Source: Haloglomus litoreum (GTDB lineage: Archaea > Halobacteriota > Halobacteria > Halobacteriales > Haloarculaceae). From it: 64,000 nt of DNA. The position numbers and the translations under genes were made by a program. How positions within the stretch are numbered: position 1 is the stretch's first letter; each line of letters starts with the position of its first letter. The DNA lies in NCBI RefSeq assembly GCF_029338515.1, contig NZ_CP119988.1, positions 2,604,001 through 2,668,000 of the forward strand. The letters are read 5' to 3'. The notes under the pieces were generated by a model, which saw only the letters and a program-made list of their open reading frames with translations, was not told where the DNA came from and ran no database searches. Shown here in pieces: positions 50,793 to 53,884 of the stretch.

Positions 50793-53621
50793 ATGGCCGA
50801 GGACTCCCAGCAATCGCTGACCGACTTCGGGAGCGCCGGCGCGGACGACGACGGGAGCCCGGACGAGGGGACCGAGGCGGAGATCGCCGAGGCGGTAGCC
50901 GGGAACGGCGGCGGTGACAGCACGGCGGTCGTGGACATGGCCGAGCGGCGCTACCCCGACGCCGAGGGGACGACCACGCTGGCCGTGACGCAGGTCGACT
51001 ACACCGTGGAGGGCCACGGTGACGAGGAGCGACCCGTCCTCCACGTGTTCGGACGGAACGCCGAGCGCGAGTCGGTCCACGTCCGGGTCCACGAGTTCGA
51101 GCCGTACTTCTACGCGCCACTCTCGAACTTCGTGACCGACGCGGCGGCCGCCGAGATGGACCCGAGCGAGTGGACCGAGGACGACCTCGACCCGATGCAG
51201 GACCCCGAACAGCAGTTCGACCGGCTGACCGGGCGCCACCTCACCGACGCCGACGGGGAGCCGTTCGAGAGCATCCGTGGCGAACGCCTGCTGAAGATCA
51301 CCGGACAGACGCCGCGGGACGTGGGGCAGCTGCGCGACCGGTTCGACCACTACGAGGCGGACATCCTCTTCCCGAACCGGCTACTCATCGATCGCGACAT
51401 CCGGTCTGGCGTGCGGGTCCCCATCCGGCGGGAGGAGGACGGCGACGGGGCACCCGACGGAGCCGGGGACGGCGACGTCCCCATCGACGTCCACCACAGC
51501 GAACTCGAACCCGTGGAGATGGATGTCGAGCCGCGCGTCTGCACCTTCGACATCGAGGTCGACGACCGTCGGGGCTTCCCCGAGGACGGTGAGGAGCCCA
51601 TCGTCTGTCTCACCTCGCACGACTCCTACGACGACGAGTACGTCGTCTGGCTCTACACCGCGCCCGAGGGCATCGAGGGACCGGACGCGCTGCCGGGGTA
51701 CGAGCCCATCGAGGACGACCTCGACGTCGAGGTGCGGTCGTTCGAGCGCGAGGAGACGATGCTGGCCGAGTTCGTCGACTACATCCGCGAGACGGACCCG
51801 GACGTGCTGACGGGCTGGAACTTCACGGACTTCGACGCCCCCTACCTGCTGGACCGCATCGAGGAGCTGGCCACGCCCGAGAACGGCCTCGCCATCGACC
51901 CGACCTCGCGCGTCAACGAGGTCTGGCGCTCGGACTGGCAGGGCCCCAACGTGAAGGGTCGCGTCGTCTTCGACCTGCTGTACGCCTACAAGCGCACGCA
52001 GTTCACGGAACTGGACTCCTACCGGCTCGATGCAGTGGGAGAGACCGAACTCGACGTGGGGAAGGAGCGCTACGCCGGCGACATCGGCGACCTCTGGGAG
52101 GAGGACCCCGAGCGCCTGCTGGAGTACAACCTCCGGGACGTGGAGCTGTGTGTCGAACTCGACCGCAAGCAGGAGATCGTCCCGTTCTGGCAGGAGGTCG
52201 CCTCCTTCGTGGGCTGCAAGCTGGAGGACGCCACCACGCCCGGCGACGCCGTGGACATGTACATCCTCCACGAGGTGTTCGGCGACTTCGTCCTGCCCTC
52301 GAAGGGGACCGTCGACGCCGAGGACTACGAGGGCGGCGCCGTCTTCGACCCCATCACGGGCGTCAAGGAGAACGTCAGCGTGCTGGACCTGAAGAGCCTG
52401 TACCCGATGTCGATGGTGACCATCAACGCGTCACCCGAGACGAAGGTCGGGCCGGACTACGACGGCGAGACCTACCGCGCCCCCAACGGGACGCTGTTCC
52501 GCAAGGAGCCGGACGGCATCATCCGGACGATGGTCGACGACCTGCTGACCGAGCGCGAGGAGAAGAAGGTCCTCCGAAACGACCACGAACCCGGAACCGA
52601 CCCGTACGAGCAGTACGACCGGCAGCAACAAGCTGTCAAGGTTATTATGAATTCTTTATATGGGGTACTTGGATGGGACCGGTTCCGGCTCTACGACAAG
52701 GAGATGGGAGCCGCTGTAACAGCTACAGGCCGGGATGTAATTCGGTATACGGAGAGGGTCGTCTCCGAGATGGATTATCAGATCGTCTACGGAGACACCG
52801 ACTCGGTCATGTTGGAACTCGGACAGGACGTTTCGACCGAGGAGGCCATCGAGCAGTCGTTCGAGATCGAGGAGCGCGTCAACGAGTCGTACGACGAGTT
52901 CGCCCGCGAAGACTTGAACGCAGAGGAGCACCGCTTCCAGATCGAGTTCGAGAAGCTCTACCGTCGGTTCTTCCAGGCGGGCAAGAAGAAGCGCTACGCC
53001 GGCCACATCGTCTGGAAGGAGGGCAAGGACGTCGACGATATCGACATCACGGGGTTCGAGTACAAGCGCTCGGACATCGCGCCCGTCACGAAGCGGGTGC
53101 AGCACCGCGTCATCGAGATGATCGTCACCGGCGCGGACCTGGAGGACGTGCGCACGTACGTCCACGAGGAGATCGACTCGTTCAAAGCCGGCAACGTGGA
53201 CTACGACGACATCGGCATCCCCGGCGGCATCGGGAAGAAACTCGACGCCTACGACACTGCAACCGCGCAGGTCCGCGGCGCGAAGTACGCGAACCTGCTG
53301 CTGGGGACGAACTTCGGGCGCGGGTCGAAACCCAAGCGGCTCTACCTCGAGAACGTGGACGCCTCGTTCTTCGAGCGGATGGAAGAGGAAGAGGGGCTGG
53401 ACCCGCATGCGGACCCACTGTACGGCGAGTTCAAGCGGGACCCGGACGTCATCTGCTTCGAGTTCGCCGACCAGGTGCCCGAGGAGTTCCACGTCGACTA
53501 CGAGAAGATGCTGGAGAAGACGCTGAAGGGGCCCATCGCCCGCATCCTCGAGGCGCTGGACATCTCCTGGCAGGAGGTCGAAAGTGGGCAGGAACAGACC
53601 GGACTCGGGTCGTTCATGTAA
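50793..53621 (+). CDS. polB: Family B replicative DNA polymerase, intein-free
   Basis: 942 residues from ATG 50793 (GCCTTTTTCAC patch 28 bases upstream). 3'-5' exonuclease ExoI D253-I-E255; palm motif A SLYPMSM (535-541), motif B KVIMNSLYG (616-624), motif C YGDTDS (666-671). An acidic insertion lies about 205-235. Both termini carry PCNA-binding-like peptides: QQSLTDF (6-12) and QTGLGSFM (935-942). Codons about 612-683 are A/T-ending (GTT, ATT, TCT, TTA, TAT, ACA, AGG) whereas the rest is GC3-rich; this tract spans both pol-a and pol-c intein sites. Main replicative polymerase candidate with PolD. Confidence 0.97.
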   Translation: MAEDSQQSLTDFGSAGADDDGSPDEGTEAEIAEAVAGNGGGDSTAVVDMAERRYPDAEGTTTLAVTQVDYTVEGHGDEERPVLHVFGRNAERESVHVRVHEFEPYFYAPLSNFVTDAAAAEMDPSEWTEDDLDPMQDPEQQFDRLTGRHLTDADGEPFESIRGERLLKITGQTPRDVGQLRDRFDHYEADILFPNRLLIDRDIRSGVRVPIRREEDGDGAPDGAGDGDVPIDVHHSELEPVEMDVEPRVCTFDIEVDDRRGFPEDGEEPIVCLTSHDSYDDEYVVWLYTAPEGIEGPDALPGYEPIEDDLDVEVRSFEREETMLAEFVDYIRETDPDVLTGWNFTDFDAPYLLDRIEELATPENGLAIDPTSRVNEVWRSDWQGPNVKGRVVFDLLYAYKRTQFTELDSYRLDAVGETELDVGKERYAGDIGDLWEEDPERLLEYNLRDVELCVELDRKQEIVPFWQEVASFVGCKLEDATTPGDAVDMYILHEVFGDFVLPSKGTVDAEDYEGGAVFDPITGVKENVSVLDLKSLYPMSMVTINASPETKVGPDYDGETYRAPNGTLFRKEPDGIIRTMVDDLLTEREEKKVLRNDHEPGTDPYEQYDRQQQAVKVIMNSLYGVLGWDRFRLYDKEMGAAVTATGRDVIRYTERVVSEMDYQIVYGDTDSVMLELGQDVSTEEAIEQSFEIEERVNESYDEFAREDLNAEEHRFQIEFEKLYRRFFQAGKKKRYAGHIVWKEGKDVDDIDITGFEYKRSDIAPVTKRVQHRVIEMIVTGADLEDVRTYVHEEIDSFKAGNVDYDDIGIPGGIGKKLDAYDTATAQVRGAKYANLLLGTNFGRGSKPKRLYLENVDASFFERMEEEEGLDPHADPLYGEFKRDPDVICFEFADQVPEEFHVDYEKMLEKTLKGPIARILEALDISWQEVESGQEQTGLGSFM

Positions 53622-53884
53622 GTCAGAAAAATATACTTCAGACGCCCAAATACAATATTTCGATATATAAGCCATATTCTACACAGTTATCGGACCCATA
53701 CACGAATCACACCCATTCGAACGAGCTGGTTACTGGCCTGGAGCGCACACCAGCCAGACAGGGAATCGTGACACGGGATTTCACAGACCGAAGATTTCGT
53801 TTTCGATTCGCGAACCCTGACGTGGAAACCCGAAACCATTATGCACGTCACACCCCGAGTTTTGGTCGACCGAAGGTACTCATC
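53622..53884. promoter_or_regulatory. 263-base upstream region of the suf genes
   Basis: AT-rich after polB (53622-53690), then an inverted repeat TTCGCGAA (53808-53815) near A/T-rich TTTTCG, a TATA-like CATTATG (53837-53843) and GAGTTTTG (53857-53864) 25-45 bases before ATG 53885. The TTCGCGAA palindrome could be a regulator site. No gene seen. Confidence 0.4.

Follow-up and report, generated by a model that had tools for sequence, protein, structure and literature searches.

The polB gene and its A/T-ending codons

We analysed a stretch of 64,000 nucleotides of the Haloglomus litoreum contig NZ_CP119988.1 (hereafter the window), which contains an intein-free polB gene (Table 1). It has no second full-length copy in the genome, a single contig of 4.70 Mb. 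Codons ending in G or C make up 91.4% of polB and those ending in A or T make up 8.6%. The results of our segment scoring showed that the run of A/T-ending codons pointed out by the initial annotation is real and that it is an outlier within the gene, the top-scoring A/T-ending segment (codons 612 to 652) reaching a score of 27.1 while the maximum of 5000 synonymous-codon shuffles was 14.7. A weaker A/T-ending tail extends to about position 52832 (about codon 680), with an AT3 of 0.21 at codons 653 to 683. The tract is patchy, as every codon from 628 to 638 ends in G or C. A scan of the window for other runs of A/T-ending codons gave two stretches with a higher score; the stop-to-stop frames scanned may include non-coding sequence. 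The intergenic stretch that directly follows polB (53622 to 53860) is A/T-rich in G+C-rich surroundings.

Table 1. Features of the polB locus, in positions of the window
Feature	Position	Strand	Remarks
polB, family B DNA polymerase, intein-free	50793..53621	+	942 aa; PF00136, PF03104
Empty polB-a intein insertion point, K534/S535, motif A	52394..52395	+	Without codon halo
Core A/T-ending codon tract, codons 612-652	52626..52748	+	22/41 codons A/T-ending; 0/5000 synonymous permutations
5' part of the tract, codons 612-620	52626..52652	+	Nearly codon-identical to intein-bearing G001 and G002
Empty polB-b intein insertion point, N620/S621, motif B	52652..52653	+	Intein here in G001, G002, G003 and most carriers
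Divergent, exchanged segment, codons 621-712	52653..52928	+	Maximum-likelihood segmentation against G001 and G002; starts at the polB-b insertion point
Empty polB-c intein insertion point, D668/T669, motif C	52796..52797	+	Inteins of G022, G028, G032, G050, G055 and others
Conserved block, right boundary of the exchanged segment	52929..53010	+	Identity with the congeners recovers

The motif B insertion point, which had been labelled pol-a, is the one that we take to be polB-b in the usual naming, polB-a being the site in motif A. Its position at N620/S621 stood, whereas the motif C site, first placed at D670/S671, is located at D668/T669 in intein-bearing relatives. An apparent fifth polB intein site at 345/346 was the polB-d site misaligned.

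The window's own genome (G000) has three congeners in the genome collection (G001, G002 and G003), all of which carry an intein at N620/S621; G003 has a second intein at motif A. When the G001 polB-b intein was used as the query, no match was found elsewhere in the Haloglomus litoreum genome, which ruled out its relocation within that genome. A domain search of the same intein gave Hint_2 above the cut-off and LAGLIDADG_3, the domain of a candidate homing endonuclease, at 22.4 bits, just below the cut-off of 22.5. The polB-b inteins of the three congeners look mosaic in their middle part, and that of G001 resembles inteins from outside the genus (G240, G026 and G264) more closely than it does that of G003. 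The Haloglomus litoreum genome is not intein-free, since it carries an mcm intein at the Walker A site (GTGK/S, 466 aa; L323, G000:C1:3421500-3426700); an mcm intein of the same length is found at the same site in two congeners. Two family-B polymerase-like genes of this genome (L002 and L003, G000:C1:1244255-1245169 and 1343994-1344908) are both 894 aa frames with identical match scores, about 100 kb apart, suggesting a duplicated element, and a third homologue is located at 4201212.

A divergent segment 3' of the polB-b insertion point

Comparison of the window polB with that of the three congeners showed that nucleotide identity decreased from about 88 to 93% outside the tract to 65 to 67% across codons 621 to 712, where the congeners are 82 to 86% identical among themselves. 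Maximum-likelihood segmentation against G001 and G002 placed the divergent segment at codons 620/621 to 712 (52650/52653 to 52928), with an LR (log-likelihood gain) of 52 to 58 versus a permutation maximum of 12, and mismatch was 0.33 within the segment versus 0.08 to 0.09 outside. On the left, the segment starts at codon 620/621, precisely at the site of intein insertion. Immediately 5' of it, codons 612 to 620 differ from those of G001 and G002 only at codon 612 and, for G002, also at codon 620; codons 613 to 619 are identical and mostly A/T-ending. When the more distant G003 was used for comparison, the best divergent segment was codons 639 to 714. Both flank trees united G000 to G003, while the tract tree set G000 apart from a group of the G001 to G003 tracts (SH-aLRT 95). 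The AU test on the 102-residue tract did not reject a single clade for the genus (p = 0.35), a result obtained from only 102 columns.

We assembled 129 haloarchaeal polB genes from a genome sample partly picked by similarity to the tract, and intein positions were taken from the alignment to the window protein. The results of this comparison showed that codons 621 to 712 lost 0.108 identity relative to the flanks when only one congener of a pair had the polB-b intein (17 discordant pairs, each genome used once), versus 0.031 in 28 concordant pairs (Mann-Whitney p = 1e-4). The effect was absent from the flanks of the same pairs, with p = 0.62 for codons 591 to 620 and p = 0.94 for codons 721 to 812. 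Because within-genus pairs are not fully independent, genus-level tests are given: the comparison of 13 discordant with 15 intein-free concordant genera gave p = 2e-4, or p = 4e-4 without the window's genus, and the direction was the same in 7 of the 7 genera having both kinds of pairs. The version of the tract therefore follows the presence or absence of the polB-b intein in close relatives (13 genera, p = 2e-4), while the polB flanks follow the organism and not the intein, as they unite G000 to G003 and the effect of discordance is confined to codons 621 to 712. The flank and tract values were 0.956 and 0.717 for the pair G230-G240 and 0.922 and 0.714 for the pair G039-G163, and in both genera it is the intein-bearing species (G240 and G039, respectively) that stands apart from several empty congeners. 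In the vertical intein-bearing pairs G006-G298, G243-G356 and G182-G352, the intein, the tract and the flanks agree.

With flank similarity controlled for, the similarity of inteins was also related to that of their tracts (partial Mantel r = 0.16, p = 0.001), and the same test on control regions gave p = 0.09 for codons 541 to 612 and p = 0.30 for codons 726 to 797. The closest tract neighbours from other genera shared the polB-b state with an excess of 0.19, versus 0.00 to 0.10 in control windows. The discordance, partial Mantel and neighbour results are those predicted by homing with one-sided co-conversion. The flank-congruence correlation showed that the tract is scrambled in general, and does not settle direction within the genus. 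In-frame length differences fall within the exchanged segment at codons 677 to 683 and cut across families; several relatives have single-codon gaps there (G017, G028 and G037, for example), while G023, G259 and G265 have matches that are five codons longer.

The alleles that best match the 3' segment of the window polB have no intein at polB-b (G290, G351, G259, G374 and G230), and the window allele belongs to the "empty" type. For the segment of the congeners, the best matches are carriers from another family (G356, G244 and G243, also G091 and G011), the nearest of which (family f4, genus g46) reach only 73 to 78% nucleotide identity. For either version, no donor closer than about 79% in nucleotides was found in the phage, plasmid, viral and named-genome collections. 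A viral or plasmid donor was rejected, as there was no phage match, the plasmid matches were only two archaeal polB genes at 69 to 72%, and viral contigs reached about 40% in amino acids.

The empty state of this allele can be read as the loss of a past intein, in which an intein-free polB fragment of another haloarchaeon replaced the intein together with the 3' segment and left the foreign segment as the scar, a reading to which we give somewhat less than an even chance. The 5' codons up to N620 match those of carriers, and the G001 to G003 tracts form one group, as described above. Path distances (four-point condition) in both flanks, with G003 basal and G000 beside G001 and G002, favour loss, since the intein could then be ancestral and a single loss would be the shortest story. 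This is weakened by the inteins of the genus, which are not vertical (flank 0.965 versus intein 0.877 for G001 and G002, with G003 further off), whereas intein and flank agree in vertical pairs elsewhere; repeated gain by the congeners is thus plausible without any loss here, and no close empty donor was found in the collections searched. We consider escape from invasion and intein loss through replacement by an empty allele nearly equally likely.

The initial annotation had instead proposed a scar in the form of a co-conversion tract that stayed behind after the precise loss of an intein acquired by homing. For a plant cox1 intron, a loss that left the whole co-conversion tract in place has been reported (PMC3192709), and the A/T-ending codons of this allele are among the most marked of those compared around the site (AT3 of 0.50, 7th of 115). 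However, the tracts closest to that of the window belong to the alleles listed above, intein-free at polB-b, and the version of the carriers is the one found in the congeners. The scar idea was partly supported, in its link to intein sites, and the retained tract is unlikely.

The codon halo in polB and mcm

As a measure of the halo in 116 GC3-rich haloarchaea, we took the ratio of observed to expected (O/E) A/T-ending codons with normalisation for each residue and each genome, which removed amino-acid composition as a cause of the halo. The O/E ratio was mostly 0.5 to 1.7 along polB and was 2 to 3 at codons 611 to 630 and 641 to 680, with a dip at codons 631 to 640. The halo surrounds the polB-b and polB-c sites in intein-bearing and intein-free alleles alike, and its median O/E was 3.57 in polB-b carriers versus 1.86 in intein-free alleles, both values being above 1; the comparison of alleles with and without the polB-b intein gave p = 2e-4. 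In mcm, the ratio was 2.7 to 3.9 around sites 331 and 358 and 2.5 to 2.9 around site 411, and was about 1 further out. The halo is tied to intein sites in haloarchaea. The placement of the tract at intein sites, which had been called striking, is thus not a coincidence, given that the conflict starts at N620/S621 and recurs in 13 genera and that mcm has a halo as well. The A/T-ending codons do not represent the composition of one donor, as had been suggested, since most haloarchaea have them with or without an intein. Their presence in intein-free relatives had been named as an argument against a scar if it came with no phylogenetic conflict; these relatives do share the codons, but the conflict is present.

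A codon bias that acts locally, for folding or as some other DNA signal independent of inteins, would agree with the halo of intein-free haloarchaea. It is nevertheless very improbable, because mcm as a second gene also has a halo at its intein sites, because the halo is stronger where the intein is present, and because 36 methanogen polB genes (0.76 at codons 612 to 629 and about 1 at codons 639 to 680) and 30 methanogen mcm genes (0.90 to 1.16) from a related set had no halo at the same alignment positions. In that methanogen order, polB was intein-free at the site in all cases in which the search produced an unbroken match. The polB-a site, with 13 carriers in the sample, showed almost no halo, so that the halo is not universal. 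G009 and G036 (loci L041 and L054) have no polB-a intein and an AT3 of 0.46 to 0.48 around motif A, possibly as old footprints, while the carriers at this site are mostly without a high AT3 there.

Selected synonymous recoding that hides the site from the homing endonuclease, raised by the initial annotation as recoding that destroys such sites, would explain why empty alleles more often have AAT, TCT, AGT or AGC, and CTG at the cut codons while carriers favour AAC TCG CTC, and escaper mutations in homing sites do arise in the laboratory (PMC10643990). We consider such resistance an improbable cause, as it predicts a stronger halo in empty alleles and the halo is stronger in carriers. The halo also reaches well beyond the recognition site of 14 to 40 bp, endonucleases of this kind tolerate single synonymous changes (PMC3024317), and amino-acid divergence at codons 641 to 712 is left unexplained by resistance.

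Third positions were more A/T-rich in the flanks than in the inteins (3.1- to 3.3-fold versus 2.1-fold), a point against the homing explanation. The composition of inteins correlated with that of their flanks (rho of 0.32 and 0.46), a correlation that supports imported sequence as the origin of the halo. On the 5' side (codons 612 to 620) the halo is present and the exchange signal is absent, so that exchange alone is insufficient to account for the halo; mutagenic, error-prone repair of breaks is a possible origin. Simple cytosine deamination on resected single strands, which predicts a T-rich 5' side and an A-rich 3' side, was not supported, as the observed T share was 0.57 (5') and 0.67 (3').

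Probable intein homing with one-sided co-conversion

We consider it probable that the tract was left by intein homing at polB-b, the polB-c site being nearby. The pattern would be caused by homing repair, and we infer from the sequence comparisons that intein homing in haloarchaea swaps, by co-conversion, about 280 bp of the host gene on the 3' side. The LAGLIDADG endonuclease of the intein would cut an empty polB at N620/S621, and repair would copy in the intein with about 90 codons of the donor's 3' extein and very little of the 5' extein, until the conserved block (about codons 713 to 745) lets the strands rejoin. The 3' segment would thus occur in two versions, one intein-travelling and one of the empty type, whose distribution crosses genus boundaries; the window polB would have the empty-type version beside its native 5' codons, and the three congeners the intein-travelling version together with the intein. 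Over repeated rounds, cutting, conversion and loss may surround the homing site with A/T-ending codons, a halo that would outlast the intein.

Co-conversion tracts are already known for mobile introns. The plant mitochondrial cox1 group I intron has a 3'-only co-conversion tract, with one case of intron loss in which the tract was kept (PMC3192709). Both systems comprise a mobile element with a homing endonuclease, a putative one in the polB-b intein, and a divergent host tract on the 3' side whose state follows the element; unlike the cox1 tract, which lies beside an RNA intron and is minimally 3 to 21 bp in its canonical form, that of polB is about 280 bp long, lies beside an intein in an archaeal chromosomal gene, and ends at a conserved block. 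Diversity gradients are described for yeast mobile mitochondrial introns (PMC5378118), with imported co-conversion or mutagenic repair as candidate causes. Host variation rises toward the homing site in both cases and the same two explanations apply, although the yeast work concerns within-species SNP density and polB shows between-species exchange and a directional A/T bias at third positions. The term "intein" is absent from the text of that paper. PMC4071816, PMC3024317 and PMC10643990 deal with the same host genes and insertion sites as here and cover the distribution and horizontal movement of haloarchaeal inteins, active homing in Haloferax and the proposal of loss by homologous replacement. 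Co-conversion of single flanking codons is noted in them at MCM-d; their passages on these subjects mention no exchange tract 3' of polB-b and no halo of codons. A keyword search of an open-access library found no earlier report of a class-wide 3' exchange tract or of a codon halo at intein sites.

In more general terms, the chances seem even that intein homing sites in haloarchaeal genes carry lasting compositional halos and one-sided exchange tracts produced by repeated cutting and repair, that intein-free genes are a fossil record of invasions, and that essential replication genes are mosaics made by a parasite. If this is true, inteins would do more than insert: they would move the motif B to motif C palm region of a replicative polymerase between genera and alter the codon usage of the catalytic core of their host. 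The homing assay in Haloferax volcanii works, which makes the 3' bias and mutagenic repair directly testable. Phylogenies could be misled by polB and mcm, and past invasions would be readable from intein-free genes, which bears on the debate over the gain-loss cycle of inteins.
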